Shown here one piece after another: positions 3-15,638 of a stretch of DNA of 16,134 nucleotides (positions are counted from its first letter, which is position 1; every line of letters starts with the position of its first letter). Both the position numbers and the translations under genes were made by a program. The DNA lies in contig JAAXVQ010000012.1 in the NCBI GenBank assembly GCA_013335425.1, forward strand, positions 1 through 16,134, in the 5' to 3' direction. This DNA comes from Candidatus Firestoneibacteriota bacterium (lineage in GTDB: Bacteria; Oederibacteriota; JAAXVQ01). The notes beneath the pieces were generated by a model. The model saw only the letters and a list, made by a program, of their open reading frames with translations. It searched no databases and had not been told where the DNA came from.

Positions 3-512
3 TTTACGGCAGGCTTTTTCGAGAGTATTTATCCGCTTTCAAAAATTATCCCGGAAAAGTGGGTGCTTTCCCTGCCTCACGGCCGCAGCGCGGTTATGCG
101 CCTTTCCAATGTGTACGGCCCGCGCCAGAGCCCGAAAAATGTTTTTAACGCCTTTTTAGGACGCCTATTGGGGCCGGCGGAAGAGGCGGTCTCCTTTTCG
201 GATGATACCCGCGACTTTATTTCCGCCGCCAAGGCCGTCCAAGCCATAGAGACAGCGGGGCGCAAACTGAGCGCGGGCGAGTTTTCTGAAAATGAGAAGT
301 TTTTAATTGTTTCTGGAAAATCGACGGGCATGGAGGCGTTGCTGAATTTGGTAAGAAAGGTCCTGGGACGTTTTGGTTTGCTCCGTCTGCAAAAAGAAGC
401 CGGTCGGGCTGAATCGGTCCCTCAGAAAATGCCGGAAGTTGACACGCGTAAAGCGGAGCAACTACTAGGGTTTGACCCGCGCAGCGACTTGGAAGAAGGT
501 ATTCAGGATATG
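3..512 (+). other. Domain: NAD-dependent nucleotide-sugar epimerase/dehydratase, C-terminal part
   Basis: This is the C-terminal half of an extended short-chain dehydrogenase within the giant protein. Visible marks are YPLSK at 30-44 (catalytic Tyr and Lys), then the family motif RLSNVYGPRQ (about 102-131), DDTRDFI (about 201-221), and the closing motif DTRKAEQLLGFDP followed by LEEGI (about 438-507). The closing motif matches the usual C-terminal end of NDP-sugar epimerases such as GalE-like enzymes. The NAD-binding glycine motif must lie left of the window. Substrate specificity cannot be read from this half. Confidence 0.85.
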
Positions 513-3500
513 GTCCTGGAAGTCGGCCTGCCCGGACTTTTAAGCCAGGAAGCCCGTTCGAAGAAGGACGCCGAGGCCGAACGTCGGATTTTAGAGGCGC
601 GATACCGGAACCAGATCCCGCTGGGTTTTAATCCCGGGGAGAAAGTTAAAATTAAAGGTGTGGTCATGGATGTGGACGGTACCATAACCTACAACGCCAC
701 CCGCCCGCCTGAAGGGCAAAATCTTGAAGAACTGGTTAAATGCTTGCGTGTCGGCATTCCCGTGCTGTTGATCAGCGGCTCTCCCATCAGCAAGCAGCAG
801 TGGGTAAAGATTTATAGGAATGGCGATGAAAATCAATATTTCCTATCTGAGCAAAAATTTGAGGAAGCCAGTTTGCTGGAACGAGTTATCGCGCCGATCC
901 GCGCGGAATTGGAACGGCAGAACAAACTTGCCGGGCAAAGCGGAGATCTGTCGGCGCTGCAGCATCTCACAGTGAAAGGAATCGATGGTGCTGAGACGAT
1001 AAGTTTTGCCGAGCAAGGAAAAGAATGGTGGCACTTAGATGAAGCGGTTGCGATCCCCGCCAAGGATCAATGCGCCCTCGGCAGGGCTTTGGCTGTCGGC
1101 TACCTCAAGGTGCTCAAACCAAGTCTGAATCTTGATGAAAGGCAGCAATACGAATTTGATAGCGCGTTGGAGGGACTGCGCGCCGCAGAGGATGTTTTGT
1201 CGGTTATTCAATGGCTCACCACGACTACTCAAAAATTCGGGGTGGAAACCAAGTTTTGGCTGTTTAATTCAGAAATGGTTCTTAAGGAAAAAACTAAAAA
1301 AATTCCGGCAAGCCTTGTCCTGAAAGAAGCGGAAGCGGAACTGATACGAGAAGGGAAGGTAAACATAAAGGATTATGCTTTAACCTTCGGCGGAACTTTC
1401 ATTAAAATCAGCCGGCTGGAAAAAACACCCTCGGTTCAAACGTGGGTGGATCGCCTTGCCGGCGAGGGCGCGGTCTTGGGGTTGGGAGATACCACCACTG
1501 ATGATTTTCTGGGGAAAGCTAAAGATCCGCTTTATTTCGCCTTTTTCATTGGTAAGGCTTTAGAAATGGCCAAGTATCCAAACTTGATTATCGCTCGGGA
1601 TGACCGCAATCACGATAACGTCGCATTTCAAGCCACTGGGGAGATTTTAAACAAATTTCGCGAAGCTGTTGAGAAAGGACTCGTGTTTGGAAGTTTGAAA
1701 ATTTTCGACAATCGTTACAGCTGGCATGATTTGCTGGCAGCTGATTTTCCCATGGAACAAATGTTGGCGGAACGTCGTTCTGATCAACCTAAGGAAGGTC
1801 CGAACAGTGCCGGGAAAGCGCCCGCTTGGCGCTCGCTGAAACAGTTGATTGAGTCCCGGAAACGCGAGCATACCGCGTTGCCTAAAGCGCTGGCGGAACT
1901 GGCCCCGTTCGCAGAGCAGGTTTGGGTAACTGAAGAGAATCACGGTAGCGCCTATTTTATTAAAGTGGCCCTACCCGGATCGGACGGGAAAATTGAGTAT
2001 GCATATGCTTACTTGGGTTCTCACGACGACTGGGACAAGGGGCTGGCAAATCAAGGCCATCTTTTTGGTTTGACCTATAATAAGTGGGCGGCACAACGTC
2101 CCGACTTTCTTTATAGGACCGAGGTGGCCCTTGGACAATGGCAGACAGAAAGAAAGCGGCTCCTCAACCAACCTTTGAACAACTTGATTAAGGTCATACC
2201 CGACCTGATTCATCAAACTGAATTTGAAAACAGATTGAATGACCTTCTCAACCATGTTAAACCTGAACGGCTGCCGGCAGGGCCCATTTCCCTTGAGAAC
2301 CTCACCTGGACACAATTATACAATGCGCTCAAACCGTCGTCTTCTCATGAGAAGGAGTCAAATGCTTTTGAAGATCTCAATTGGCTGGCGGACACTTATA
2401 TCGGAGCTTACTTAGAAAAAAAGTATCCCAAATTGTTTTTAGGCCGGGTCCCGGTACACAAACAAACCGTTAAAGATCTGCCGCTGTGGCCGGTGAGCCC
2501 TTCACCCGACTTGACACCTGACAGTTTGAGGTGGATGCCGGAAGGCGGAGCAAAACGTGTACCGAGCGTTTATGCAGCCGCGCCTAAAATAAGCCTGGAC
2601 GAAATTCGAAGCCGGCTTGCTAAAAATATTTCCGTTCAGCCGCCGCACGGTCAACTGAGCCTTTTTGGAGACAACTCCCCGTTATCCGTCGAAAGTGCCC
2701 GTCCGGTCCAACTTGAACGAACCGCCCATCCGGCCCCCGACGTTATCCAACCACCTGCTCAGGCTTTGATCATAGGTCAGGTCCAAGAACGGCTCTTACA
2801 AGAAGACTTTATTGGCGTTGCTGATCTGAAGTTTTCATTGACCGTTAGGCCTGCTGGTATGCCGGTCAATGTTCGATTTAATGCACCTCACACGGTGGCT
2901 TATGCAACTGAGGCGGAACTTTCCTCGCCGGAAGAAATTTATCGAATATATAAAAAGAGACTGGTTGAACTTGAACTCATAACGTTAGATATAGAAATGG
3001 CACCTCTGGATCGTGAAATATTCGTTCGTTGGTATGTCGCCGGCTCGGGGGAGACGAACGCTCCCAGAACCCGTTCCAGCGCCCCGCTGAAGAAATTGGT
3101 GGCATCGATTTTGGCAGATCCTTCTTTTTCGGAGGCGGAAAAACATAAATTGGCAAAAGAGATTTTGGATATTAGATATTATTCCCAGTTGTCTTTTATT
3201 TTGGAAATGCAACGAAAGGAACTTGAAAGCGCGAGAATCTTTTTGGGAACTTCGGAATGGGTGTCTTTAGAAACGCTGAAAAATTCAGGGGAATTGCCTG
3301 CCGGCTTGCGGTCGTTTTCGCCTTATGCCTCCCGGGTTTGGGTCATAGCGAATACGTATCGGGAAGGAGAGCAGGAAGAAATCCGATATTTCGTGCGGGT
3401 CGCGCTTCCGCTTGAGAACGAAATTCCTAAATTTGCCTATCTGTATTTGGGTGCCCGAGACGACGTGCAAAGCAACCGCAGCTTTAGTTGGTACGGCACA

Positions 3501-6500
3501 CTTTTTAACTGGAGCTTTTCAACTTGGAAACAGAAACATCCGGACTTGTTCAACGTTTCCGGGCTGCCGAACTACCCGGACATTTTTAAAAGGACGCTCT
3601 TCGCTCAGGAACAGCCTGCGGTACGGGATTTGCCCCTCTGGCCGGTTACGGAACACGCACAGATCAAGTTTCCTTTTTTATCCTGGATGACGGAGGCAGG
3701 GCAGACACACGGCCCGCCACCTTATTACCGGCATTGTCTGAAAGTATCTTTGGCTGATATTTTGGCCTCGCTCGCCAAACAAAAGACGTCGGCGTTGCCG
3801 ACTTTGGTTGCCGTCCCTGAGAAAGCGGCGGCGCTAAAAGCGGAATCGGCTGTTAAAACTGCGGATTTAAGTCGGATTACCTACCGCGCTGCTGTATCCG
3901 AGGATTTCCCGGATATTGTGGCTATCCATAATAAAATGTGGAACGGCAAGCCGGGCTTGGAAAATTTGTACACGGTTGAGGATCTGGAAAATTATAAAGA
4001 AAAAGATCCCAACGGCATCCGAGTGGCATTGAGCCCGGAAGGAAAAGTTTTGGGCGCGGTCTTCAGCCGCCGCCTTATGACCCGCGGGGATCCCGGCAAA
4101 ATCAGCGAGTTGAACTGGAAGGAAGTAACCACCATCGGCGGTATGGAAAAATGGGACAGCCGTTACTTTTTTGCCATCAGCGTGGAAGAATCTGCCTACA
4201 TCGGCCTGGGCAAGGCGCTGATCAACGATACCAAGGCCTATCTCCAAGAGCACGATCCCCAAACCCGTTTTTATTTCACGCTCAGTCCTTCGATGTATAA
4301 ATCTTCGAATTACCGTCCTTCGCCTTTGCCGACTGCTCCCGAAGCTTTGGCGGCATATCATGCCCAGCGAGCCGAACATGCCGGTTTATCGGATATCGAA
4401 TTCGATCTGCAATTCGGGTTGCGTGCCGGCTTAAAAGATGCGGATAAAGAATACATCCGCTGGCTGTCGGCTTTACGCGCGCAGTACCCCGAACTTAACG
4501 ATGCGGAGTTTGATGCGCAACACGGTTTTCTGGCACACCTTAATTACAAAATATTGGGTCGTGACGGCAAGCCCACTTTTTATGACATCACTGCGCGGTT
4601 TCACCGCCGGAACGGAGCCAAAATCGCCGCCATCTTCCGGAACTTGCGTCCGGACTGCGAGTGGTCGTTATCATACTCCTACAGCGATGGCGCGGAAGAC
4701 TTGAAAGACACGGATTTCAGGGGCGAGGGCTTGACGCCCGGCGCGAGTCCGGCTGCAATCCCTTTCCTGGCCCGGATGGTACGCAAGCTGCATCCGGAAG
4801 CATCGCAAGATGAGTTGATCTTACATTTGCTGCCAAAATACGAGAGCGCGATTTTCGGCGCAGTATCGTTGTTGCTGACTTTCGGGATGCTTTCGGCGTT
4901 GGGTTTGGCTATTGCCGGTTGGACTTTGCCGGCCCTGGGATTGAAATTTTCCTTTGCGGGCATGACCGGCTATTTGCTCACGAACTTCCTTTTTGCAGGT
5001 TTACACAAACAGGTATACCGTTGGAAACAATTGCCCGGTTCGGGGGGAAATCCGGTTTTTGGCTGGGTATCGGAAAAAGCGGATTTCAGCGTGCGGCGGG
5101 AGCTGTTTGCCGTTTCCGCCTTAAAGATTCATTGGCCTTACCTGCTGGGCCTGGTAGCCTTTCTGCCGACCTTGGGCTGGGTGAACGTTTGGAGTCTGCT
5201 GGGGCCCGGGAGTCTCTTGGCGGCGGGAATGTTCGGGAGCATGGCGGTCGTAACCGGCTTGACGGCTATGGTTTTAATGGCCGTGGCGGGCAGGTATGCC
5301 GTTAAATTCCATAGGCAATACAACCGCCAAGCCAAACAAATTGGCGAACCGGTTTTGGCAGTGGAGACGGGCGGGAACGTCCGGGGGGCGGGCGGTACGG
5401 CGGAAATAAAGACCACCCGTGAAGCGGCCGAACGCTTGAAACAGTGGCTTGCCGAACATCCGATCAGAGCTTCTTTGGATGACCAGGTGCAGAATAAACC
5501 GGTTCGGGTTTCGGTACGTTTGTTGACCTTGGAGGATCGCGAGAAATTGCCGGCTGCGTTGGTGGAGATCAAAAAAACTTTTTACTACCGTGATCCCAAT
5601 ATCGTCGTCCTGGCCCTTGAATCTCCGCGGGGCATCGAGGGTGTTTTGGCGTTGAACGCCCTTATGCCCGATGATCAACGGTTTCAACAAATCTTGGTTG
5701 ATTTTCAAAAATTCAACCCGCACCCGCCGGTTATGGAAATTGAATCTTTTGTCACCCGTCATGACGCGTTTACCGCCGACAAGCAATTTCGATACACCGG
5801 CGCGGGATCCATTTTGCTGGCCGTCGCCGCCAAAGCTATTTTGGAATTGCGAGGACCGCAGGCCGCCGACGAATTGAACTCGGTATTGTTGGCCCAAATC
5901 ATTAAAGTCGGCGCGTATCGAAATCCGAAGACGAACGAAGATCTGGATCCGGATGATTTCTACCTTAAAGCCGGCATGGAGCCGTTGGATAAAGCGGCGT
6001 TCGAGGATCACCGGAATGCCAATGCCGTTTCCAAATTGGTGGGGAAAGGCGACCTGCGGGCGACCTATGAAACTCAGTTCTATTGGTCGACCCGGCCCAT
6101 GATCCGATTCATTCAAAATGCCATGCTTAGGTATGGCATCAAAGGGATGAATTGGCTGAGTGACAAGGATTTCATTACGCCTCGTTCTTTTCAGCCGAAA
6201 CAAGCGGATTCCAAAGTTGAAATTGTAACCAGTCTTACTGACGAAGAGATCAAACGGATCAGCGAGAAATATAAGGGAGACGGTCATCAGGAGCCCGGGA
6301 GGGTGCCTTCGAGCAAGGATTATGGTTCAACTTTGGAGGCTGTAAAGGAAAAAGTTTTTCCGGAAATCGTCCAAAAGATGCCGGCTTTTAACACCGAGTT
6401 AAAAGGCACGGAAGTCATGCTTATCGGTCCCGGGAGCGATGCCCGCGAGATTATTCAGTTGGCCGAATTGTTTCCCGGCATTAAGACGATTCACGTGGTT

Positions 6501-7949
6501 GAAGCCGATCCTCAGTTTATGCCTAAGATCACCGAGGAGGTTAACGCCTTTTTTGGCCCTGTGTCGGAAATTAAGATTAAATGGCATACCGTCAATCTCT
6601 TGGAATTGCCTCAGGACCTTTCGAATAAAATTGATATGGTATACGCGCGAAAGATTTTTGATCCGGATTTTTTCAGTTCGACGCAACTTCGGCAAGCGGC
6701 ATCGGAAATATTCAGGGTACTAAAAAACGGGGGCGTGCATATTTCTTCCAAACATCACCTGAAGGAAGCGGCTTTACAAGGCTTGCCGTTTAAATCCATT
6801 GACCTCTCGCTGAAAAATCAGCCGGCTTTGGCTGAATTTAAAGTCCGGGTCAAATCCGGACCGGAAAATGAAAGGCAGTCCGGCGTCCGGTCAGGTGCAG
6901 ACACGGCCAAAGCAGGGGAAGGAACATTGCTTTTTGAAACGGCCAACACACCTGTGACCGTGCCGGCCTGGCAGCTCTTGCAACGGGCTCGTGAGGTACG
7001 CTGGCTTTTCCTGTTGGTTTTGCGTTTGGGTTTTGACCTGTTGAATGTGCTGGCCGGGGATGGGAAGACTTTCCGGGCGAAAGGTCTTGACGAACAGGAA
7101 ACGACTTTTTGGCTTACCGGTCTGGTGCGCCGTTATTTTCGCCGCGATGCCGGGGAATCTATCCGTTTTATGCCGAAAGTTCAGGCCATGGAATCTTCCT
7201 CGTTTTGGCAGCGGACGCTGGGGAAATATTCTGAAAATAAAGCACAAGAACCTCCCAGCTTGGGTTTTTCGCAGGATCTGCTTTGGGCTCTTTCCCGTCA
7301 GGGCCGTCAAGGCGGATTGGCGGCAGCATTGCGCGCACGGCTGGCTTTGAAGCTGGCGGAGCAGATTTGTTATTACCGCGGCGCGGAGTTTTACCGACAA
7401 ACCTGGGAACTCAAGTGGGCGGATCATTTCGGCGAAGCTTGGTTGGCGGCCGGGCTGTTGCCTTTAGGGCCGGTCTCGGGTTGGATGCATGCGCTTTTAG
7501 CCCGGATATATGGACCTGACAGCTATGTAAACCTGGTGGTTGCCTCTCTTTCTCCGGACCTGATTCGGACTTCCAATTTGGCGCAACACGCCAAAGTCGG
7601 CGACCGCCAACTTATGAAACTGCTGCACGCTCTGGTATTGGGTGGTGACGAGAACAAAGCGCGGGATCAATGGACAGCGCTTATCGGTCGGATCGATCCG
7701 CAAACGGCTACGGCGGATTGGCTGTTTGTTTCCGAAGCCATTCGGCGCATGCGGCAGGTGGAGCAAGTTAAGATCTCAATTTTAGATGCCCAGGGAAATT
7801 CGTTCTTGCTGAGTGTGCCGTCGGCAGTGTTTAATTCACCCAAGGCCAAGGGGGTCTTGTTCGATCATTTGCCCCCGGCTTGGAAGCCGGCTGAGACCAT
7901 GGACAACGCAAGGCCCAAGCGGTCGCAATGGTTTGCGGGATCTGCCTAA
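3..7949 (+). CDS. Giant multidomain protein (epimerase-HAD-duplicated module-GNAT-TM-GNAT-methyltransferase), 5' partial
   Basis: The frame is open from the left edge to TAA at 7947-7949, giving at least 2,648 residues. A GTG at 63 is not the start: the codons before it encode YPLSK (30-44), the YxxxK active-site motif of extended SDR enzymes, so the gene begins outside the window. Residue numbers in this and the domain entries count from position 63. Order: SDR C-terminal part (to ~150), HAD phosphatase (~195-560), unknown module copy 1 (591-854), unknown linker, module copy 2 (1068-1239), GNAT-like (~1265-1550), four hydrophobic segments (~1596-1748), second GNAT-like (~1805-2025), Rossmann methyltransferase-like (~2060-2236), unknown C-terminus (~2290-2628). 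No stop or frameshift interrupts it, so it is maintained as one frame. Giant mosaic genes are known from Omnitrophota. The overall function is unknown. Polyprotein processing or a membrane-tethered multi-enzyme are both possible and undecided. A strong terminator follows 32 nt after the stop. Confidence 0.9.
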   Translation, partial: FTAGFFESIYPLSKIIPEKWVLSLPHGRSAVMRLSNVYGPRQSPKNVFNAFLGRLLGPAEEAVSFSDDTRDFISAAKAVQAIETAGRKLSAGEFSENEKFLIVSGKSTGMEALLNLVRKVLGRFGLLRLQKEAGRAESVPQKMPEVDTRKAEQLLGFDPRSDLEEGIQDMVLEVGLPGLLSQEARSKKDAEAERRILEARYRNQIPLGFNPGEKVKIKGVVMDVDGTITYNATRPPEGQNLEELVKCLRVGIPVLLISGSPISKQQWVKIYRNGDENQYFLSEQKFEEASLLERVIAPIRAELERQNKLAGQSGDLSALQHLTVKGIDGAETISFAEQGKEWWHLDEAVAIPAKDQCALGRALAVGYLKVLKPSLNLDERQQYEFDSALEGLRAAEDVLSVIQWLTTTTQKFGVETKFWLFNSEMVLKEKTKKIPASLVLKEAEAELIREGKVNIKDYALTFGGTFIKISRLEKTPSVQTWVDRLAGEGAVLGLGDTTTDDFLGKAKDPLYFAFFIGKALEMAKYPNLIIARDDRNHDNVAFQATGEILNKFREAVEKGLVFGSLKIFDNRYSWHDLLAADFPMEQMLAERRSDQPKEGPNSAGKAPAWRSLKQLIESRKREHTALPKALAELAPFAEQVWVTEENHGSAYFIKVALPGSDGKIEYAYAYLGSHDDWDKGLANQGHLFGLTYNKWAAQRPDFLYRTEVALGQWQTERKRLLNQPLNNLIKVIPDLIHQTEFENRLNDLLNHVKPERLPAGPISLENLTWTQLYNALKPSSSHEKESNAFEDLNWLADTYIGAYLEKKYPKLFLGRVPVHKQTVKDLPLWPVSPSPDLTPDSLRWMPEGGAKRVPSVYAAAPKISLDEIRSRLAKNISVQPPHGQLSLFGDNSPLSVESARPVQLERTAHPAPDVIQPPAQALIIGQVQERLLQEDFIGVADLKFSLTVRPAGMPVNVRFNAPHTVAYATEAELSSPEEIYRIYKKRLVELELITLDIEMAPLDREIFVRWYVAGSGETNAPRTRSSAPLKKLVASILADPSFSEAEKHKLAKEILDIRYYSQLSFILEMQRKELESARIFLGTSEWVSLETLKNSGELPAGLRSFSPYASRVWVIANTYREGEQEEIRYFVRVALPLENEIPKFAYLYLGARDDVQSNRSFSWYGTLFNWSFSTWKQKHPDLFNVSGLPNYPDIFKRTLFAQEQPAVRDLPLWPVTEHAQIKFPFLSWMTEAGQTHGPPPYYRHCLKVSLADILASLAKQKTSALPTLVAVPEKAAALKAESAVKTADLSRITYRAAVSEDFPDIVAIHNKMWNGKPGLENLYTVEDLENYKEKDPNGIRVALSPEGKVLGAVFSRRLMTRGDPGKISELNWKEVTTIGGMEKWDSRYFFAISVEESAYIGLGKALINDTKAYLQEHDPQTRFYFTLSPSMYKSSNYRPSPLPTAPEALAAYHAQRAEHAGLSDIEFDLQFGLRAGLKDADKEYIRWLSALRAQYPELNDAEFDAQHGFLAHLNYKILGRDGKPTFYDITARFHRRNGAKIAAIFRNLRPDCEWSLSYSYSDGAEDLKDTDFRGEGLTPGASPAAIPFLARMVRKLHPEASQDELILHLLPKYESAIFGAVSLLLTFGMLSALGLAIAGWTLPALGLKFSFAGMTGYLLTNFLFAGLHKQVYRWKQLPGSGGNPVFGWVSEKADFSVRRELFAVSALKIHWPYLLGLVAFLPTLGWVNVWSLLGPGSLLAAGMFGSMAVVTGLTAMVLMAVAGRYAVKFHRQYNRQAKQIGEPVLAVETGGNVRGAGGTAEIKTTREAAERLKQWLAEHPIRASLDDQVQNKPVRVSVRLLTLEDREKLPAALVEIKKTFYYRDPNIVVLALESPRGIEGVLALNALMPDDQRFQQILVDFQKFNPHPPVMEIESFVTRHDAFTADKQFRYTGAGSILLAVAAKAILELRGPQAADELNSVLLAQIIKVGAYRNPKTNEDLDPDDFYLKAGMEPLDKAAFEDHRNANAVSKLVGKGDLRATYETQFYWSTRPMIRFIQNAMLRYGIKGMNWLSDKDFITPRSFQPKQADSKVEIVTSLTDEEIKRISEKYKGDGHQEPGRVPSSKDYGSTLEAVKEKVFPEIVQKMPAFNTELKGTEVMLIGPGSDAREIIQLAELFPGIKTIHVVEADPQFMPKITEEVNAFFGPVSEIKIKWHTVNLLELPQDLSNKIDMVYARKIFDPDFFSSTQLRQAASEIFRVLKNGGVHISSKHHLKEAALQGLPFKSIDLSLKNQPALAEFKVRVKSGPENERQSGVRSGADTAKAGEGTLLFETANTPVTVPAWQLLQRAREVRWLFLLVLRLGFDLLNVLAGDGKTFRAKGLDEQETTFWLTGLVRRYFRRDAGESIRFMPKVQAMESSSFWQRTLGKYSENKAQEPPSLGFSQDLLWALSRQGRQGGLAAALRARLALKLAEQICYYRGAEFYRQTWELKWADHFGEAWLAAGLLPLGPVSGWMHALLARIYGPDSYVNLVVASLSPDLIRTSNLAQHAKVGDRQLMKLLHALVLGGDENKARDQWTALIGRIDPQTATADWLFVSEAIRRMRQVEQVKISILDAQGNSFLLSVPSAVFNSPKAKGVLFDHLPPAWKPAETMDNARPKRSQWFAGSA
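640..1740 (+). other. Domain: HAD-superfamily phosphatase
   Basis: Residues ~195-560 of the giant protein carry the haloacid-dehalogenase signature. Motif I is DVDGT (D203 nucleophile, D205 acid/base). Motif II is LLISGS (S238). Motif IV is GDTTTDD (D476, D480), which binds Mg2+. The distance from motif I to motif IV, about 270 residues, is long and includes an apparent cap or insertion at about 260-440. HAD enzymes of this shape usually remove phosphate from sugar phosphates or related small molecules. Its position directly behind a nucleotide-sugar epimerase suggests, but does not prove, a sugar substrate. All key acidic residues appear intact, so activity is plausible. Confidence 0.8.
1833..2624 (+). 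repeat. Intragenic duplicated module, copy 1 (residues 591-854)
   Basis: This is the first copy of a module found twice in the giant protein. Landmarks shared with copy 2, in the same order: SLKQL / SLETL; QVWV / RVWV; YFIKVALP / YFVRVALP; YAYLGSHDD / YLYLGARDD; VKDLPLWPV (803-811) / VRDLPLWPV; LRWMPEGG / LSWMTEAG; KISLDEI / KVSLADI. Copy 1 is about 90 residues longer. The extra sequence lies between the 'RPDF' landmark and DLPLWPV (about nucleotides 2115-2460) and is mostly predicted helical. I do not recognise this module as a known domain. The divergence between copies indicates an old duplication. Confidence 0.85.
3264..3779 (+). repeat. Intragenic duplicated module, copy 2 (residues 1068-1239)
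   Basis: This is the second, shorter copy of the unknown module at 1833-2624, with the same ordered landmarks ending in VRDLPLWPV (1187-1195), LSWMTEAG and KVSLADI. It is separated from copy 1 by about 210 unassigned residues that include a Pro-rich linker, and it is followed directly by the first GNAT-like domain. Aromatic and charged positions (W, Y, DD, LPLWP) are better kept than the rest. That pattern is typical of a folded domain rather than low-complexity sequence. Confidence 0.85.
3855..4710 (+). other. Domain: GNAT-like acetyltransferase 1 (possibly degenerate)
   Basis: Residues ~1265-1550 begin with a GNAT-type N-terminus (ITYRAAVSEDFPDIVAIHN) and reach a motif-A-like stretch, SAYIGLGKALI. 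In active GNATs this stretch is usually Q/R-x-x-G-x-G/A and binds acetyl-CoA pyrophosphate. Only part of the consensus is kept here, and the leading Arg/Gln is missing. It ends with FHRRNGAKI, RNLRP and SLSYSYS, resembling the 'FHxxNGA' ending of some large bacterial GNAT proteins. An insertion of about 100 residues separates the two parts. Activity is doubtful; a structural or binding role is possible. Confidence 0.6.
4848..5305 (+). other. Membrane-spanning segment of the giant protein (about four helices)
   Basis: Four hydrophobic stretches are visible in residues ~1596-1748: around AIFGAVSLLLTFGMLSALG, then GYLLTNFLFAGLH, then YLLGLVAFLPTLGWV, and finally SLLAAGMFGSMAVVTGLTAM. Basic residues follow the last helix (GRYAVKFHRQYNRQ). 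An even number of crossings would leave the flanking enzyme-like domains on the same side of the membrane, presumably the cytoplasm. FAGLH resembles the FxxxH motif of CPBP intramembrane proteases, but the EExxxR motif of that family is not seen, so no protease call is made. Confidence 0.7.
5478..6130 (+). other. Domain: GNAT-like acetyltransferase 2
   Basis: Residues ~1806-2022 form a better GNAT candidate than the first. Motif A reads FRYTGAGSILL, close to the R-x-x-G-x-G/A acetyl-CoA binding pattern (Arg near residue 1910). The end carries DFYLKAGM, matching the common 'FYxKxGF' end of GNAT folds. The N-terminal part (VRLLTLEDREKLPAAL) resembles a GNAT first strand and helix. The substrate is unknown. 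It follows the membrane segment after a short Gly-rich linker (about 5362-5400). Confidence 0.65.
6240..6770 (+). other. Domain: class I SAM-dependent methyltransferase-like
   Basis: Residues ~2060-2236 show a Rossmann methyltransferase pattern. There is a glycine motif VMLIGPGSDA (near 2118), then an acidic end of strand 2 (HVVEADP, near 2145). After these come IDMVYARKIFDPD and a motif typical of family ends, SEIFRVLKNGGVHI. The glycine motif is GPGSD rather than the commoner GxGxG, but it is compatible with SAM binding. Methyl acceptor unknown. Confidence 0.65.
6936..7946 (+). other. Unrecognised C-terminal region of the giant protein (residues ~2292-2628)
   Basis: About 335 residues without a family I can name. 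The sequence is rich in Leu, Ala, Arg and Trp, and looks mainly helical. It has one moderately hydrophobic stretch near the start (VRWLFLLVLRLGFDLLNVLAG) and a second around AWLAAGLLPLGPVSGWMHALL, either of which could touch the membrane. The last 60 residues turn strand-like (VEQVKISILDAQGNSFLLSV). Its composition and continuity argue that it is translated, but nothing shows a function. Confidence 0.5.
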
Positions 7950-7981: not shown

Positions 7982-8026
7982 GCAAATGAAAACCCTCCGG
8001 AATGTCTCTGGAGGGTTTTCATTTGC
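7982..8026. terminator. Bidirectional intrinsic terminator between convergent genes
   Basis: A perfect 17-bp inverted repeat (7982-7998 with 8010-8026) encloses an 11-nt loop. The stem has a GC core (CCCTCC/GGAGGG) flanked by A-tract and T-tract, so a U-run forms on either strand. It lies 32 nt after the giant gene's stop and 46 nt after the stop of the converging SDR gene, and can serve both. Confidence 0.88.
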
Positions 8027-8072: not shown

Positions 8073-8867
8073 TCAGGGCAGCATCAAGCGTTTGCTTACG
8101 CGCAGAACCAGGTTGCGCGAAGCCAAGCGGACGAAGGCCAGCGTGAGTTTGTTGACCAAGCCGGGTACCACGCGCTTGCGTCCGCGAAAGAGGGCACGCA
8201 CGCCGGCTTGGGCCACGGCCTCGGGCGTCAGGACCGTCATTCGGAAGGCCAAGGTGTCTTCCATTTGTGCCCGTTGGGCGAACTGCGTGGCGGTCGGGCC
8301 CGGACACAGGGCGGTTACGCTCACACCGGTACCCGCGAGTTCCGTGCTTAAGGCTTCGGAGAAACTCAGCACGAACGCTTTGGTGGCGCCGTAAACGGCC
8401 AGGTTGGGCATGGGGGCAAACGAACCCGTGGAACCGACATTGAGGATTTTTCCCCGCTTGCGTGCGATCATTGCCGGCAGAAAGAGATGCGTCAGCCGCG
8501 CCAAGGCGCGTATGTTGACCTGAAGCATGGTTTCCTGTGCGTGCCAGGGCGCATGGGCGTACTTGCCGGAAGCGCCCAAACCCGCGTTGTTGACCAAAAT
8601 GTCCACGGTCCGTTTCTGCCGGCGTACTTGGTCGAAAAGTTTTTCAGGTGCCTCGGGGCGTTCGAGATCCAGGGGCAAACACCAAGCATGGATGCCGTAG
8701 CGGGTCTCAATTTCCCAGGACGTTTCCGCCAACCCTTTGGCGCTGCGGGCCGCCAAAATCAGCTCATAACCCCGCGCAGCCAGTTCAAAACTCAGTGCAC
8801 GGCCGATCCCGCTGGAAGCACCTGTGATCAGGGCGGTTTTCGCCCCGGGGGTGATGAGTTTCGGCAT
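8073..8867 (-). CDS. Classical short-chain dehydrogenase/reductase (DltE-like, COG0300 type)
   Basis: 264 residues, the usual length for a classical SDR: a soluble NAD(P)-dependent oxidoreductase acting on an alcohol or ketone substrate. TGASSGIG (15-22) binds the cofactor, NNAG (93-96) stabilises the central sheet, and the catalytic set is N118, S146, Y159 and K163 (YGATK). PG (189-190) follows as expected. Arg41 after strand 2 (AARS) favours NADP(H). Start: ATG at 8867 with AAGGAG at 8881-8876 on the minus strand, 8 nt upstream. The gene converges on the giant gene and diverges from the methyltransferase gene. The substrate cannot be inferred; SDRs of this subgroup have varied or unknown substrates. 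Confidence 0.93.
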   Translation of the reverse strand: MPKLITPGAKTALITGASSGIGRALSFELAARGYELILAARSAKGLAETSWEIETRYGIHAWCLPLDLERPEAPEKLFDQVRRQKRTVDILVNNAGLGASGKYAHAPWHAQETMLQVNIRALARLTHLFLPAMIARKRGKILNVGSTGSFAPMPNLAVYGATKAFVLSFSEALSTELAGTGVSVTALCPGPTATQFAQRAQMEDTLAFRMTVLTPEAVAQAGVRALFRGRKRVVPGLVNKLTLAFVRLASRNLVLRVSKRLMLP

Positions 8868-8899
8868 TCGTTAGGCTCCTTGGCGTGTGGAATAACATC

Positions 8900-8929
8900 A
8901 CTATACCCGATGACCGGATATTTTTGCAA
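8900..8929 (-). promoter_or_regulatory. Candidate sigma-70-type promoter of the SDR gene
   Basis: Read on the minus strand: TTGCAA (8929-8924), 18-nt spacer, TATAGT (8905-8900). Each hexamer matches the consensus at 4/6 and 5/6 positions respectively. The predicted transcript start, near 8893, lies about 26 nt before the ATG and just ahead of the Shine-Dalgarno sequence. The assignment rests on sequence match only. Confidence 0.5.
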
Positions 8930-9019
8930 GGGCTGCGTAACGCAATCTCCCTTCACTGGCTGTGGTTTTTCCATTGCATTCCCCGGTAAGCGTGATAGAT
9001 TGAACCCACTTGTATTACC

Positions 9020-9025
9020 TATAAT
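9020..9025 (+). promoter_or_regulatory. Candidate -10 box (TATAAT) for the methyltransferase-mntP unit
   Basis: A perfect TATAAT sits 25 nt before the methyltransferase ATG, just ahead of the GGAGG at 9041-9045. The best -35-like hexamer, TTGAAC at 9000-9005, is only 14 nt away, shorter than the usual 16-18. The promoter may therefore be weak or activator-dependent, or the match may be chance. A leader this short leaves no room for a riboswitch. Confidence 0.4.
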
Positions 9026-9050
9026 TTTTCCCCGGCACTGGGAGGGCGGC

Positions 9051-9848
9051 ATGTCCGGATCAGGGGAACAGGCGTTTGATGAAGTGGCAGGCGAATACCA
9101 GCAAAAAGCCTTGGTGCAGCACCGGGCGGCGAAGAAATTGTTGGCTCTGGCGGAAGTTCGGGAGGGTGAAGACGTCCTGGATGTGGCTTGCGGTCCCGGG
9201 CATATCACCGATGCCCTTCGTTCCTTGACCACCGGGCGTGTGCTGGGCACGGACATCAGTGAAGGCATGCTGAACGAGGCCCGGCAACAGTATCCACGGC
9301 TGGAGTTCAGGCATATCGCGGCCGAGGACCTTGACTATGCCGGGGAATTCGACCTGGTGTTTTGCAACAGTTCCCTGCAATGGTTTGAGCACCCGGACCG
9401 GGCTCTGGCAGCCATGTTCCGGGCGCTGCGCCGGGGTGGGCGCTTGGCACTGGCTTGTCCCACGGCTTGGGGTCTCTTTGCGCAGGCAGTCGATTCTGTG
9501 ACCCAATACCCCGAGATTGCTCCGGTATTTAAACATTGGCGCAATCCCTGGTTTGTGTTGCCGGATTTGGCGGGTTACCGCGCCCTGGCCGAAGGGGCGG
9601 GTTTTGCCACGCGGCAGGCCGAGTTGGCCGAGGAAACCGAGACCCTGGCCTTGGAGCGGGCCTACCAGGTTTATCTCTCGGGCGCAGCCAACGGCTATAC
9701 GGGGCGAATGTATTATGCCGAAGATTTTCCGGAAACGTATGTTCGGGAGTTCAATGCCGGTGTACGCCGTGTCTTGGAGGCTCAAGCCGTGGCGGGCAAA
9801 GTGGCGGTGACGTTTACGCGTTTGTTTTATCTGGGGGAAAAAAAGTAA
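9051..9848 (+). CDS. Class I SAM-dependent methyltransferase (Tam/BioC-like)
   Basis: 265 residues. The SAM-binding motif is VLDVACGPG (42-50), with TDIS (67-70) at the end of strand 2. FCNSSLQWF (104-112) is the 'SLQW' motif shared by trans-aconitate methyltransferase and BioC malonyl-ACP methyltransferase, followed by FRALRRGGRLAL. The C-terminal half forms the substrate-capping region and does not settle which substrate is used. No bio genes are nearby, so BioC is not favoured. Start chosen at ATG 9051 because GGAGG lies 5 nt upstream and the protein then begins with the normal amphipathic N-terminal helix; the frame extends upstream to 8487 but that part overlaps the SDR gene and encodes nothing recognisable. 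mntP follows after 11 nt, so the two are probably co-transcribed. Confidence 0.88.
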   Translation: MSGSGEQAFDEVAGEYQQKALVQHRAAKKLLALAEVREGEDVLDVACGPGHITDALRSLTTGRVLGTDISEGMLNEARQQYPRLEFRHIAAEDLDYAGEFDLVFCNSSLQWFEHPDRALAAMFRALRRGGRLALACPTAWGLFAQAVDSVTQYPEIAPVFKHWRNPWFVLPDLAGYRALAEGAGFATRQAELAEETETLALERAYQVYLSGAANGYTGRMYYAEDFPETYVREFNAGVRRVLEAQAVAGKVAVTFTRLFYLGEKK

Positions 9849-10509: not shown

Positions 10510-11649
10510 TTAGGCGGTCGTGGTATTGTAAATTTCACGCATTTCTGCGATTCGGCTGATGAACAGTTGCACCAGTTCGGGATCAAAGTGGGACCCTGAA
10601 CCTTCCTGCAGCATGGACACCACTTGTTCCGGGGGGAACGGGTCTTTGTACGGACGCCGGGACGAAAGCGCGTCAAACACGTCAATGATGGCCGCCAGCC
10701 GGGCCGAGAGGGGAATTTGATTGCCCGCGATTTTTTGGGGATAGCCGCTGCCGTTCCATTTTTCATGATGGCAGGTGGCGATTTCCAAGGCGAGTTTCAT
10801 ATGCGGTCCGCGTCCCAGGATTTCGCCTCCCAAACTCGTATGCCGCTGCATGATTTCCCATTCGGCCGGGTCCAGTTTGGCCGGTTTTAAAAGCACGGCA
10901 TCGGGGATGGCCACCTTGCCGATATCGTGCATCATCATGGACAATTTTAAGGATTCCAGATCCTTGGGGGAAAAGCCCAAGGCCGGACCCAGGGCAAAGG
11001 CATAAGCCCCGCAGCGTTCGATGTGCAACCCCGTGTCGCCGTCACGGTATTTTTCCGCCTTGGCCATGTTGAGCATACTGTCCATATACGCGCGCTTGAC
11101 CTCGTCGTAAAGCCGGGCGTTTTCAATGGCAATGGAAATTTCGCGGGAAATGGCTTTTAGACTGCGGGCGTCGTCGGAGGTGAAGGTGCCGCGGGCTTTG
11201 TTGAGCACTTCCAATACGCCGATGCACTTGCCCTTGACCTCAATGGGCGTGGCAATGAGATTTTTGGTGACGAACTTGGATTTTTCATCCACCTTGTTGT
11301 AAAAGAAGGGGCTCTTGGCGGCTTCGGGAATAAGCAGGGTGCGTTTGGTTTGGAACGAACGCCCGGCCACGCCCTGGTCCGCGGGCATGCGAATGACCTT
11401 GAGAATGTCTTTTTTATCTCCGGTAGCCAGGTAAAATTTGAGTTGGTTGGTCTCGGCATCATAAATCAAAATGGACGAAGCCGTGGCCCCGACCGTTTTT
11501 TCCATCAAGTGCATGGAAAGGTTTAAAACTTCGTCGATTTCCAGCGAGGAGTTGATCAGACGGCGGATGCGATCCGGCACTTCGGAAACAAACGCATGGT
11601 TGGCGGCGCGGGCAACAGGTTTGGCTTTAGCAGTTTTTTTTGCGCGCAT
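10510..11649 (-). CDS. GAF/HD-GYP domain protein, likely cyclic-di-GMP phosphodiesterase
   Basis: 379 residues; cytosolic, with no membrane segment or signal peptide. After a Lys/Ala-rich N-terminus (1-20), a GAF sensor domain spans about 28-180, then an HD-GYP domain spans about 190-370. HD-GYP proteins hydrolyse c-di-GMP with two or three metal ions. The expected ligands are all present: D205, H209, H241-D242, H270, H294-H295 and D323, plus GYP (302-304) and RPYK (332-335). One departure is WNG where the family usually has WDG before GYP. There is no receiver domain, so input is through the GAF ligand rather than phosphorylation. Start: ATG at 11649 with GGGGGAG about 6 nt upstream on the minus strand. 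It ends just before the bidirectional terminator it shares with mntP. GAF ligand and output are unknown. Confidence 0.93.
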   Translation of the reverse strand: MRAKKTAKAKPVARAANHAFVSEVPDRIRRLINSSLEIDEVLNLSMHLMEKTVGATASSILIYDAETNQLKFYLATGDKKDILKVIRMPADQGVAGRSFQTKRTLLIPEAAKSPFFYNKVDEKSKFVTKNLIATPIEVKGKCIGVLEVLNKARGTFTSDDARSLKAISREISIAIENARLYDEVKRAYMDSMLNMAKAEKYRDGDTGLHIERCGAYAFALGPALGFSPKDLESLKLSMMMHDIGKVAIPDAVLLKPAKLDPAEWEIMQRHTSLGGEILGRGPHMKLALEIATCHHEKWNGSGYPQKIAGNQIPLSARLAAIIDVFDALSSRRPYKDPFPPEQVVSMLQEGSGSHFDPELVQLFISRIAEMREIYNTTTA

Positions 11650-12062: not shown

Positions 12063-12154
12063 TATGACCGCTCTTTATTTTTGGTTTGCAGAGGACGGGA
12101 TTTTCGCCGCGCGCGTTCCACCTCGCTATTTTTCCTCGGGAGACCCGACTGCCT

Positions 12155-12967
12155 ATGTTTTGGGAAGCGCTCGTGCTCGGATGCGTGCAAGGGTTGACTG
12201 AGTTTTTGCCCATCAGCAGCTCGGCGCATTTGACCCTTTTGCCGCAACTGTTTCATTGGAGAACCCCTTGGCTGAATTCCCTGAGTTTTGACGTGGCCCT
12301 GCACTTGGGGACCTTGCTGGCGTTGTTGCTGTATTTTTGGAAAGAAGTGGCGATCATGGCCGGGGCCTGGCTGCGTAAAGGCCTGACCCGGCAGGCCTGG
12401 TCGGATCCGAATTCCAAACTGGCCTGGTGGATTATCCTGGGTACTATTCCGGCCGTGATTTTAGGCTTTCCCTTTGAGAAGAAAGTGGAACTTTGGTTTA
12501 GAGCGCCGCTGGCCGTAGCCATAAGCCTCATGGCGGCCGGGTTGCTCATGGGCACAGCCGAGTACGTCTCCCGTAAGCAGAAAGCCCTCGGTGAGTTGAG
12601 CCTGGGGCAGGCGTTGGCGATTGGTTGTGCGCAGGCGTTGGCACTTATCCCCGGCGTGTCGCGTTCCGGCATTACCCTGACCGCCGGCCTGTTCGCCGGG
12701 TTTAAACGTGAAGACGCGGCACGCTTTTCTTTTCTCTTGGCCATGCCCGTAACCGCCGGTGCCTGTGTCCTGAAATTCAAAGACCTCTTCAAGCTCACTT
12801 CGAGCGCGGAGCTGGCCGCCACGGTGGCCGGCATCCTCAGCTCGGCGGTGGTGGGTTGGCTGTGCATTCACTTTCTGCTGGCCTATTTGCGGCGGAGCAG
12901 TTTATATATTTTTGTCATCTACCGGCTGTTTTTGGGGCTGGGGGTCGTCATTTGGTGTTTGGTTTAA
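12155..12967 (+). CDS. uppP: Undecaprenyl-diphosphatase UppP (BacA family)
   Basis: 270 residues, standard length. This polytopic inner-membrane enzyme removes a phosphate from undecaprenyl diphosphate, returning the lipid carrier for peptidoglycan and other envelope glycans; overproduction is linked to bacitracin resistance. Signature motifs: QGLTEFLPISSSAH (12-25) with the catalytic-site Glu, ALHLGT (48-53), and PGVSRSGIT (166-174) with the essential Arg170. About eight hydrophobic helices are visible. Start chosen at ATG 12155, where the family's N-terminal helix (FWEALVLGCVQGLTE) begins; a GGGAG lies about 12 nt upstream, rather far. A TTG at 12086 in the same frame would add 23 residues unlike the family and has no ribosome-binding site. 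First gene of an apparent four-gene operon; next gene after 33 nt. Confidence 0.95.
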   Translation: MFWEALVLGCVQGLTEFLPISSSAHLTLLPQLFHWRTPWLNSLSFDVALHLGTLLALLLYFWKEVAIMAGAWLRKGLTRQAWSDPNSKLAWWIILGTIPAVILGFPFEKKVELWFRAPLAVAISLMAAGLLMGTAEYVSRKQKALGELSLGQALAIGCAQALALIPGVSRSGITLTAGLFAGFKREDAARFSFLLAMPVTAGACVLKFKDLFKLTSSAELAATVAGILSSAVVGWLCIHFLLAYLRRSSLYIFVIYRLFLGLGVVIWCLV

Positions 12968-13000: not shown

Positions 13001-13672
13001 ATGGATCCTTATTCCGCCCAACTGTTGGTGATGAACCAGATCGGACAGTGGTCGGCCCAATTCATCGGGCATGTGAAAATGTGGCTGATCTCCCTCGGCC
13101 TCATCCTAGTGGGCTTGGTGGTCGCCGAAAGCGTGCGTTATCTGGCCATAACCCTGCTGCGTCTTGTGAAGTTCGACGTGGTGGCCGGCCGCCGCGGCTG
13201 GACCAAGTTTTGGCAGCGTTTCCGCGCCGATGTCAGCCCCACATCCGCCATCGTACAATTTCTATTTTGGTTCACGTGGCTGGCTTGTTTCATGAAGGCT
13301 TTGGACCGTCTGGATACGGAGTGGCTGGCTTGGATAGGCCGGATGTATTTTACCTTCCTCCCCTTAACCGTGGCGGCACTGCTGATCGCCGGCTCGGCCG
13401 TGACGTTGGCCGGTTTTCTGGGCCACGCTTTGCGCACGGGCTTCGGCGGGCCGGGAGCGCTTTTGGCCGCGGCCTTGGTGCAAGCCCTGACTTATTCTTT
13501 GGGCGGCTACTATGTTCTGTCGGTCTTGGGCATAGAGGCGGCTTTGGCGCAGGGATTGACCTTGATCGTTTTTGGCGCCGTGACTTTAGGGATCGTGGCC
13601 GGTTGGGTCATTCACCCCGGTCGCGGTTTGCGTCCGGTTCTGCGGGTCGAAGATCCCGAGGAAGGTGGCTGA
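13001..13672 (+). CDS. MscS-like transmembrane-helix protein without channel domain
   Basis: 223 residues with five likely membrane helices (about 27-49, 82-100, 115-138, 153-175, 184-205). The pattern resembles the conserved TM-helix repeats found in some MscS-type mechanosensitive channel proteins. FDVVAGRRGW (58-67) follows helix 1, then SPTSAI, then long Gly/Ala-rich helices (GPGALLAAALVQALTY, LGIEAALAQGLTLIVFGA). It stops after IHPGRGLRPVL and lacks the cytoplasmic beta domain of MscS. Transport activity is therefore unproven; a membrane scaffold or small-channel role is possible. Start: ATG at 13001 with GGAGG 5 nt upstream; an in-frame TTG at 12980 precedes that ribosome-binding site and is rejected. 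Stop lies 4 nt before the debranching-enzyme ATG. Confidence 0.75.
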   Translation: MDPYSAQLLVMNQIGQWSAQFIGHVKMWLISLGLILVGLVVAESVRYLAITLLRLVKFDVVAGRRGWTKFWQRFRADVSPTSAIVQFLFWFTWLACFMKALDRLDTEWLAWIGRMYFTFLPLTVAALLIAGSAVTLAGFLGHALRTGFGGPGALLAAALVQALTYSLGGYYVLSVLGIEAALAQGLTLIVFGAVTLGIVAGWVIHPGRGLRPVLRVEDPEEGG

Positions 13673-13676
13673 ACCC

Positions 13677-15638
13677 ATGCTGCGCTTCGGACGCGACACC
13701 TGCGGCAACATTGAACTTTCTTCCCGCAAAGAGTGGTTGGAAACCAACGGCTTGGGCGGTTATGCTTCGGGCACGGTAGCGGGCATGCACACGCGCAGCT
13801 ACCATGCCTGGCTGACGGCGTCCACCCAGGTTCCCTTGCGGCGCATGCTGATGCTTTCGCAATTGGAGGAATGGGTCACCTATGAGGGGCAGAAATATGC
13901 GCTGGCCACCAACCAGTACCGGGGTGCGCTCAACCCCCAGGGGTATTTGAACCTGGAAGAGTTCCGCTTGGACCCGTTTCCGACCTGGGTTTACCGGCTG
14001 GCCGATCAACGCCTGGAAAAGCGCATTTTCATGTCCCATGGGCATAACCTCACCTGGATTTTGTACCGTCTGCTGACGCCTTCCGAGATGCCCGTCACCA
14101 TGAGCGTGCGTCCCTTGGTGAATTTCCGCAGCCTGCACTTGCGCAAACGCGAGCGGCGCTTTTTCAACACCCATCACGACCTGGCGGAGCATGCCATCCG
14201 CATGATCCCCGAGGGCAATTATCCCACGCTCAACCTTTATCACAATGCCGAAGCCTTTGAACATTCGGCCCTTTGGTATCAGAACATGTATTATCGCGAG
14301 GAAGAAGAGCGCGGGCTGGATTGTCAGGAAGACCTGTTCTCACCCGGACTTTTAAGTTTTGAACTCAAGGACAATGAAACGTCCTTTGTGGCCGCCACCA
14401 TAGAAACTTTGTCCTCGCCGAACCCGGAGACCGCGGCCGAGGTGGAACGTGTGCGTCGGAAGGATTTGCTTAAAGGCGCGACACCCGAAGACGACTTCGG
14501 ACAATTGCTGCGCCTGGCCGCGGATCAGTTTTTGGTCAAGCGGGACGAGGGCTTGAGCGTTATTGCCGGCTACCCCTGGATGAGCGACTGCGGACGCGAT
14601 GCCCTCATTGCCTTGCCGGGCTTGACGCTGGCGACCCGGCGGTTCACGGAAGCACGCACCCTGCTGACCACCCTGGCCGGGTATACCCAGGAGGGTTTGC
14701 TGCCCAACCATTTTTCCGAGGACAATGCCCGGCCTTTGTACAATACCGTGGATGCAGCCCTGTGGTTTTTTCACGCCGCGCAGCAATACGTGCGCGCCAC
14801 CGGGGATAAAATTTTCGTCTACAAACAGCTCTGGCTCACCCTGCGTGAGATCGCCGAGTTTTATATCAAGGGCACGCATTGCCGCATCCGCATGGACGAT
14901 GACGGGCTGATCAACCTGCCCGAGGAAGCGGCCCAGTGGACATGGATGGATGCGCAGGTGGGGGATTGGGTGGTCACGCCGCGTTCGGGCAAGCCCGTGG
15001 AGGTCAATGCCCTGTGGTACAATGCCGTCTGCTTTCTGCGCGATTTAGCCGCGGAGTTCGGGGAACACGAAGACCATCGGCGTTTTACCGATTTGGCTGA
15101 AAAAATCCGCGAGTCCTTCAACCTTCTGTTCTGGAACGAGAAAAAAAGCTGCCTCTACGACTGTGTGGAGGACAACTTTCGCGATCCCACCCTGCGCCCG
15201 AACCAACTCTTGGCGCTGTCTTTGCCGAACCCCTTGGTCACCGGCGAGCGCGCGCAGCGGGTGTTGGGCGTGGTTCGGCGCGAACTCTACACGACCTTTG
15301 GGTTACGGACCCTGGACCAAAGCAACGAGCATTACGTAGGGACTTACCAAGGCGACATTCTCCGGCGGGAAGGCGCTTCGCATCAGGGCACGGTCTGGCC
15401 CTGGCTGATCGGCCCTTATGCAGATGCGCTCCTGGCCGTCCAGGGACCCACGGAGCAAGTGAAAAACGAGCTGCGCCAATTGGTGTTGCCTTTCGAGGCG
15501 CATTTGCAGGAATACGGTTTGGGCACGATTTCGGAAATGTTTGACGGCAATCCCCCGCACAAGGCGCGCGGTTGCGTGGCCCGGGCCTGGAGCGTGTCTG
15601 AAATTTTACGGGTGCACACGCTCTTGGCCGAACTATGA
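13677..15638 (+). CDS. Glycogen debranching enzyme (amylo-alpha-1,6-glucosidase, GH133 / archaeal type)
   Basis: 653 residues. The enzyme cleaves alpha-1,6 branches of glycogen-like glucans in the cytoplasm. The N-terminal domain begins RFGRDTCGNIELSSRKEWL then NGLGGYASGTVAG and SYHAWL, the standard opening of this family. The C-terminal (alpha/alpha)6 catalytic domain shows YPWMSDCGRDALIALPG (near 299), YNTVDAALWFF, TWMDAQVGDWVVTPRSGKP (near 422), RPNQLLALSLP, HQGTVWPWLIGPY and GTISEMFDGNPPH (near 615), ending CVARAWSVSEILR. These are close matches to GH133 enzymes. Start: ATG 13677 with GAAGGTGG 8 nt upstream; a GTG at 13665 in frame overlaps the previous gene and gives only four extra residues. 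No other glycogen gene is in view. Its stop overlaps the next start (ATGA). Confidence 0.95.
   Translation: MLRFGRDTCGNIELSSRKEWLETNGLGGYASGTVAGMHTRSYHAWLTASTQVPLRRMLMLSQLEEWVTYEGQKYALATNQYRGALNPQGYLNLEEFRLDPFPTWVYRLADQRLEKRIFMSHGHNLTWILYRLLTPSEMPVTMSVRPLVNFRSLHLRKRERRFFNTHHDLAEHAIRMIPEGNYPTLNLYHNAEAFEHSALWYQNMYYREEEERGLDCQEDLFSPGLLSFELKDNETSFVAATIETLSSPNPETAAEVERVRRKDLLKGATPEDDFGQLLRLAADQFLVKRDEGLSVIAGYPWMSDCGRDALIALPGLTLATRRFTEARTLLTTLAGYTQEGLLPNHFSEDNARPLYNTVDAALWFFHAAQQYVRATGDKIFVYKQLWLTLREIAEFYIKGTHCRIRMDDDGLINLPEEAAQWTWMDAQVGDWVVTPRSGKPVEVNALWYNAVCFLRDLAAEFGEHEDHRRFTDLAEKIRESFNLLFWNEKKSCLYDCVEDNFRDPTLRPNQLLALSLPNPLVTGERAQRVLGVVRRELYTTFGLRTLDQSNEHYVGTYQGDILRREGASHQGTVWPWLIGPYADALLAVQGPTEQVKNELRQLVLPFEAHLQEYGLGTISEMFDGNPPHKARGCVARAWSVSEILRVHTLLAEL

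Follow-up and report, generated by a model that had tools for sequence, protein, structure and literature searches.

In many Omnitrophota, Seymour et al. (2023; PMC10066038) reported open reading frames (ORFs) longer than 20 kb that are mostly poorly conserved and carry few annotated domains, with predation or adhesion as the hypothesized role. Gigantic Omnitrophota proteins with Skillet-clade Lipocone domains, for which a role in predation is suggested, are described in eLife RP108061 (PMC12419801), and two further papers cite giant genes in Omnitrophota (PMC11573180) or in Omnitrophota, Elusimicrobia and related lineages (PMC12057145). Here, we analyze a giant ORF of a Candidatus Firestoneibacteriota bacterium, lying on contig C138 (JAAXVQ010000012.1), a stretch of 16,134 bases that is referred to below as the window. 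We conclude that this ORF probably encodes the C-terminal part of a giant mosaic protein, and that this protein belongs to a multi-copy, apparently exported family. The main finding, which was missed by the preliminary description of this DNA, is that the giants have constant ends. In the open-access PubMed Central literature searched (preprints lay outside this scope), the excerpts retrieved describe no common head or C-terminus of giant proteins.

The members whose 5′ end is in hand mostly share one organization, as judged from their translations. Specifically, they begin with a signal-peptide-like segment and a head with the predicted TIKI/ChaN/erythromycin-esterase (Ere) fold, continue with a variable middle of enzyme-like, peptidase-like, kinase-like, and membrane modules, and end with a small residue followed by Ala or Val. 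The likeness to the Omnitrophota giants lies in very long ORFs with membrane segments, in uncultured bacteria, and in a suspected host-dependent life; in contrast to the shared head found here, the excerpt of PMC10066038 names no common N- or C-terminal part. Similarly, the Lipocone giants combine polysaccharide enzymes, histidine-kinase parts, peptidases, methylases, and transmembrane segments, whereas a TIKI-like head and an Ala C-terminus go unmentioned in the excerpt of PMC12419801.

A protein-database search with the whole ORF returned only the window protein itself and one remote relative, P0002 (4,596 amino acids), which has the tail and, twice, the membrane module in common with it. 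Across 59 related genomes, that of the window among them, regions other than the epimerase found matches only in the window's own genome and in the same order, where the matching places lie in giant ORFs of up to 9,269 amino acids; the 99%-complete genome of the same genus (G001) gave no match to the window protein. The same head opens P0002, the tail-bearing ORFs of genomes G003 and G006, and the giant of G004, whose tail lies behind a frame break (identity to the G003 head: G004 52%, G006 68%, P0002 49%). This constant head consists of a signal-peptide-like leader followed by a TIKI/ChaN/erythromycin-esterase-like domain. Using a head profile, we found it in all eight genomes of the window's order and in none of the 37 other genomes of the phylum (45 genomes), with 18, 11, 8, 32, 10, 16, 13, and 10 places per genome, adding up to 118, some of which are contig-end fragments. 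Head-opened ORFs in the order reach 9,482 amino acids, and they occupy about 8.8% of G006, 5.8% of G004 and G002, and 3.1% of G001 (frame lengths divided by rounded genome sizes). In G002, four giant head ORFs stand in tandem on one strand with gaps of about 200–250 bp (G002:C34 15666-48713; L198, L196, L199, L200), the last being open at the contig end. The Giant1-5 surface proteins of Apilactobacillus kunkeei, which are likened here by description only, are likewise encoded by consecutive giant genes and make up about 6% of the genome, according to the excerpt of PMC12863079. A head match in G003 (L149, contig C280) contains two TAG and one TAA in the profile search, and is perhaps a decayed copy or a leader read in from upstream.

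The head is not limited to this order. A scan of named genomes gave 43 loci, the close ones labelled candidate division FCPU426, Ca. Goldiibacteriota, Firestonebacteria, or plain bacterium, and the distant ones (24–34% identity) labelled Omnitrophota (six) or Elusimicrobia (two). An Omnitrophota origin of the window, toward which the preliminary description leaned, was rejected, since the nearest named relatives of the gene family lie elsewhere; the Omnitrophota members are distant. Head-bearing ORFs were found in 108 of 193 genomes of the phylum of the Omnitrophota record, with lengths up to 23,964 amino acids among the matches listed (one very long, partly masked, frame-ambiguous ORF is excluded from this maximum), and in 35 of 119 genomes of the phylum of the Elusimicrobia record, with lengths up to 13,472 amino acids among the matches listed; as at most 7 or 11 candidates were scored per genome in these searches, the per-genome counts are lower bounds. 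In two control phyla the head was found in 0 of 40 and 0 of 101 genomes (0 of 141 in total). Some matches in the Omnitrophota phylum are stand-alone ORFs of about 500–600 amino acids beside the giant forms, so the head can exist alone.

For the family head, which does not lie on the window, we found a fold match to the TIKI core, together with no above-chance sequence match in Pfam, NCBIfam, or a PDB profile search. Its likeness to the TIKI/ChaN/erythromycin-esterase superfamily (RRSP, PMC6254334; EreC, PMC7979712; both in excerpt) comprises the fold, the His/Glu/His pattern, and the spacing between His and Glu, since E118 follows H90 by 28 residues as in RRSP and EreC. H90, E118, and H404 are retained in all profile-found heads with a letter at these positions (87, 88, and 89 heads within the order, and 12 of 12 distant heads), counted after heads shorter than 350 amino acids were excluded and 89 were kept. 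Unlike in these described proteins, the first Glu of the 2His/2Glu motif is an Asp (D88) in 87 of 87 heads of the order and 12 of 12 distant heads, and the domain opens giant proteins. For heads that came from a pattern scan, the patterns included VHIQDLH, so that D88 and H90 are there conserved partly by construction. Altogether, the head is a predicted hydrolase with a conserved D, H, E, and H.

The second constant part is the C-terminus. From the 118 head places, 93 head ORFs of at least 500 amino acids were in hand, 60 of them with a stop. The ends of these 60 fit [ASGM][AV] in 56 cases, Ala in 50, and Ala-Ala in 41, compared with 7, 10, and 2 among 64 neighbouring ORFs (Ala-Ala, Fisher p 1e-15). 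A basic stretch frequently precedes the Ala end (RRxRxS..xAA). The window protein ends in FAGSA and is one of four tail ORFs without a head in hand, three of which have the family-type end; all ten further tail ORFs end in [SA]A. Of 20 distant pieces, 4 lacked a stop and 1, partly masked and frame-ambiguous, was dropped; the remaining 15, given as raw counts, end in [SA]A in 9 of 11 giants of the Omnitrophota-record phylum and in QA, with Ile before it, in 4 of 4 giants of the Elusimicrobia record.

Some of these ends follow a recurrent tail domain, which the preliminary description listed as an unknown tail; the tail is present as described, and it recurs as a C-terminal domain in related giants. 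BLAST without a profile finds the window's tail in G004, G003, G006, P0002, and G000:C307. A tail profile matches eight of eight genomes of the order and 0 of 37 others of the phylum, the window scoring 417 bits as one of the seven sequences that make up the profile. Iterated over the fetched collection, it gives 39 places in 35 sequences, so only part of the giants have this tail.

We used the tail to ask how often such a gene begins with a head. The fetched collection gives 26 of 27 tail ORFs with a head, a biased count, since the collection was fetched mostly by the head and since the ORF on G002:C63 is treated as open merely because the fetched piece ended. A tail search independent of the head gave 28 places in 25 ORFs, 12 of which start inside the DNA, 10 with and 2 without a head. 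This unbiased figure of 10 of 12 makes a head on the window gene likely, not certain. Of the two headless ORFs, that on G004:C12 lies directly behind a 9,269-amino-acid head ORF in a different frame; that on G002:C63 (1,628 amino acids) overlaps the end of another frame running off the contig, and this upstream frame holds LENILQSGEE, the peptide that closes a head ORF of the same genome at the edge of contig C34. The break on G004:C12 is located at L023 16810-16852 (G004:C12:36810-36852), between the head ORF and a 1,013-amino-acid tail ORF that begins with a histidine-kinase ATPase. Both frame changes may reflect an error, decay, a programmed shift, or two real genes.

Since the window is the complete contig C138 of an assembly in 525 contigs (84% complete), the left truncation of the giant ORF is the contig end. 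The preliminary description held that the gene extends further left and called for its left flank, and this extension was borne out. A query made of the N-terminal and central epimerase region of the G003 relative, run against the window's own genome, located the missing N-terminal half of the epimerase at 55% identity. It lies in a 1,293-codon open frame, no more than 70 bases from where contig C137 ends. Pfam assigns to this frame Epimerase (E 8.7e-15) and protein kinase (E 1.7e-13, two stretches), and similarity to one region of P0002 marks three kinase-like regions upstream of the epimerase, the copies of which retain HxD and TDP by reading. C137 reaches the loop that precedes the active-site Tyr in G003, and the window begins near the same Tyr. 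Against simple continuity of C137 and C138 stand a stop 26–28 bases from the C137 end and the lack of sequence common to the two contig ends. We take C137 as the likely left flank, with a putative junction to the window. If the two are adjacent, the known length is 7.9 kb on the window plus 3.9 kb on C137, with the frame open toward the missing sequence. The 1,293 codons of C137 do not reach a head, so the gene would be longer still, provided that C137 is its flank.

The window part of the protein is divided as follows.

3..7949, +: 3′ part of the giant ORF, 2648 codons plus stop, its 5′ end lost at the contig edge
3..542, +: nucleotide-sugar epimerase, C-terminal half, with YPLSK at residues 10–14; the N-terminal half is at the end of contig C137
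585..1802, +: HAD-type module with D223xD225GT and GDTTTDD; seen six times in the collection, spread over five ORFs
1815..2717, +: first copy of an unknown module, with a counterpart in a G004 giant ORF
2715..3182, +: unassigned stretch, without a relative in the collection
3186..3797, +: second copy of the unknown module, without the middle part of the first
3825..4742, +: first GNAT-like region, a weak label (CurA, E 0.69)
4755..5387, +: membrane module with 3–4 hydrophobic helices; P0002 has two homologous copies
5400..6257, +: second GNAT-like region, labelled from reading alone
6255..6902, +: class I methyltransferase-like domain
6909..7847, +: tail domain that recurs among the giants; helical, one helix being hydrophobic
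7842..7949, +: C-terminal element ending ...RPKRSQWFAGSA, the basic/small-Ala end of the family, plus stop

The preliminary description of a giant mosaic in one uninterrupted frame stood: the frame (+) runs for 2,648 codons to a TAA stop, for which the chance expectation at the window's own base composition is about 10^-56, and Pfam, NCBIfam (on pieces), and PDB sequence searches assign no single named family to the whole. Its list of modules was largely sustained as well, with reservations on the epimerase and the two GNAT labels. Of the epimerase only the C-terminal half is on the window. Residues 8–92 match Pfam Epimerase at E 0.0024, under the Pfam cut-off, and residues 29–168 match a solved UDP-glucose 4-epimerase at E 3.4e-6 in the PDB sequence search; we take YPLSK to be the YxxxK active site. 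The HAD phosphatase with intact acidic residues was upheld, since motif I (D223-V-D225-G-T) and the acidic motif IV (GDTTTDD) can both be read from the translation; HAD-IIB-type models match weakly, below cut-off (NF002245, E 8e-6; TIGR01484, E 0.01). The two copies of an unknown module were likewise confirmed, residues 605–905 and about 1062–1265 aligning with each other and with G004, the second without the middle of the first. For GNAT-like region 1 the best PDB match is CurA (entry 2ree, its GNAT-like domain) at E 0.69, and for region 2 the sole PDB match is an unrelated phosphatase (E 1.6). Neither region matches a GNAT family in Pfam at E up to 10, so these two labels stand by reading only. 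The membrane segment between them (residues 1585–1795) shows three clear hydropathy peaks and a weaker fourth. The Lipocone four-helix core carries an ExxQ in helix 3; by reading alone, we saw no ExxQ in this segment. Lastly, the excised methyltransferase domain gives Methyltransf_25 at E 7.9e-5, with 23.7 bits slightly below the Pfam cut-off of 27. A PKS/NRPS-like (polyketide synthase/nonribosomal peptide synthetase) megasynthase was rejected, as Pfam matches of the window ORF at E up to 1 include no KS/AT/ACP or C/A/PCP modules.

Beyond this member, 44% of the 272,529 middle residues (outside head and tail) resemble another giant at E 1e-6. From these we extracted 35 recurrent module families, a few of which overlap the C-terminal region. 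When 20 module seeds were compared with Pfam, kinase, PPDK, HD, and calcineurin-like phosphoesterase (two seeds) scored above the curated cut-off and the rest gave weak or no matches; Pfam scans of whole giants add rhomboid, histidine-kinase ATPase, epimerase, methyltransferase, HAD, and GNAT. The HExxH motif occurs 56 times in the giants, compared with 7.4 expected from composition. One recurrent module with a membrane helix and HExxH (M1; L181:1123-1701, −) is weakly like an extracellular contractile injection system (eCIS) core domain, at E 0.026 and below cut-off. That the sets of partner modules differ among giants is well shown; strict re-ordering is weakly shown, in 9 of 43 pairs, all via M25/M29. 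In the G004:C12 giant (L022/L023), an exact 1,268-bp repeat over the HAD module, at about 17487-18736 and 24114-25363 and 6.6 kb apart, may be a recent copying event or an assembly repeat.

Amino acid composition gives an indirect indication of where these proteins may work. Cysteine makes up 0.351% of the 343,661 residues of 111 giants, compared with 0.958% of 21,915 residues in 65 neighbouring ORFs (Mann-Whitney p 9e-9); it is lower in the giants in all seven genomes compared, and amounts to 0.19% in the window protein. Among distant giants, four pieces have 0.31% compared with 0.84% for their neighbours, and one of the four, L130, shows no depletion. Low cysteine is an indirect sign that fits life outside the cytoplasm, and this depletion suggests export of the giants. 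On our best reading, they would be exported combinatorial proteins for contact with other cells.

An alternative is an exported adhesin or coat scaffold, in which enzyme folds serve as binding surfaces, mostly without catalysis, in a surface layer for attachment. The enzyme-family matches are mostly weak, one of the six HAD copies lacks the second Asp, and length and multiplicity fit surface proteins; adhesion or coat was also proposed for the Omnitrophota giants (Seymour et al. 2023, PMC10066038, in excerpt). On the other hand, both motif-I Asp are retained in five of the six HAD copies and GD...D in all six (two copies are identical, in the same ORF), the kinase-like copies of C137 keep their motifs, the four polar residues of the head are conserved, and HExxH is enriched. 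We consider a scaffold a possibility worth keeping in view, although the evidence leans away from it. Recurrent HExxH motifs and rhomboid domains, with weak metallopeptidase matches, a TIKI-like head, and unrelated domains in line on one chain could also be taken for a secreted polyprotein, which its own or other peptidase-like modules would cut into periplasmic or surface enzymes, the constant ends serving export and processing. The window part has no HExxH, a point against this explanation, which we regard as unlikely.

The preliminary description had seen in the module order a membrane-bound assembly line that epimerises, dephosphorylates, acylates, and methylates a sugar or small molecule. 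In its favour, a single chain carries epimerase, HAD, GNAT-like, and methyltransferase-like domains, arranged about a membrane segment, but none of the relatives found keeps the complete epimerase-HAD-GNAT-methyltransferase set. The recurring modules sit beside other partners, and paralogues combine them with unrelated ones, so the order is not a pathway and a fixed pathway order was rejected. The absence of a match in G001, the kinase-like modules of the likely left flank, and the cysteine depletion, which suggests a location without cofactors, further weigh against the assembly line, and we consider it very improbable. Separate genes chimerically joined by the assembly, for which the fragmented metagenome and the stop at the C137 edge could be cited, can be dismissed almost entirely given the open frame far beyond chance, the head- or tail-bearing giant ORFs in all eight genomes of the order, the different source of P0002, and the agreement of the ends.

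Returning to exported proteins for cell contact, we propose the following working. Sec would carry the giant protein out of the cytoplasm, and the constant C-terminus would mark it for sorting or processing through a protein able to recognise free C-termini. Tail-specific proteases (Tsp/Prc) recognise free C-termini that end in Ala, as does ClpX when these take the form of ssrA-like tags. The head and the HExxH modules would serve as hydrolases, either acting on the surfaces of partners or cleaving the giant that carries them, and the variable modules would be cargo acting on, or delivered to, other cells. The cargo of the window member would then comprise three kinase-like modules (if C137 is its flank), an epimerase, an HAD hydrolase, and GNAT- and methyltransferase-like domains around a membrane module. 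Enzyme types that depend on cytoplasmic cofactors, on a seemingly exported protein, would best be explained by either action inside another cell or lost catalysis. As a tentative extension, which we hold with more doubt than confidence, at least three lineages (FCPU426/Goldiibacteriota-type, Omnitrophota, and Elusimicrobia) may share a dedicated export and sorting pathway for TIKI-headed giants. In it, the head would be a secreted hydrolase, the C-terminal Ala would be the signal for a free-C-terminus receptor or a tail-specific protease, and the recombining cargo would include cytoplasm-type enzymes for use inside other cells.

This arrangement resembles MARTX toxins in its logic only, that is, in constant ends, exchangeable internal effectors, and recombination; one MARTX effector is of the TIKI type (PMC6254334, in excerpt). 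The giants differ in having a signal-peptide-like leader instead of type 1 secretion, and Pfam matches of the window ORF at E up to 1 include no RTX repeats or cysteine protease domain. The resemblance to MARTX and polymorphic effectors is thus offered as an analogy, with no claim of homology.

Giant bacterial proteins have previously been reported as poorly conserved and hard to interpret. With a shared head carrying a predicted hydrolase site and a C-terminal signature, many of them become a definable family with testable parts. Its small domains, namely the head, the C-terminal element, and the HAD and kinase-like domains, lend themselves to production and assay apart from the giants, and the head can serve as a marker for proteomes of uncultured, possibly predatory bacteria.

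Directly past the stop of the giant ORF, at about 7985-8020, lies an inverted repeat, GAAAACCCTCC...GGAGGGTTTTC, that is terminator-like by reading and absent from the scan list. Beyond it, five neighbours of the giant ORF are ordinary genes by their Pfam matches.

8073-8867, −: short-chain dehydrogenase
8487-9848, +: methyltransferase
10510-11649, −: GAF-HD protein
12086-12967, +: UppP/BacA
13665-15638, +: glycogen debranching enzyme

The methyltransferase ORF (8487-9848, +) overlaps the dehydrogenase ORF on the opposite strand, and its Pfam domain lies downstream of the overlap.
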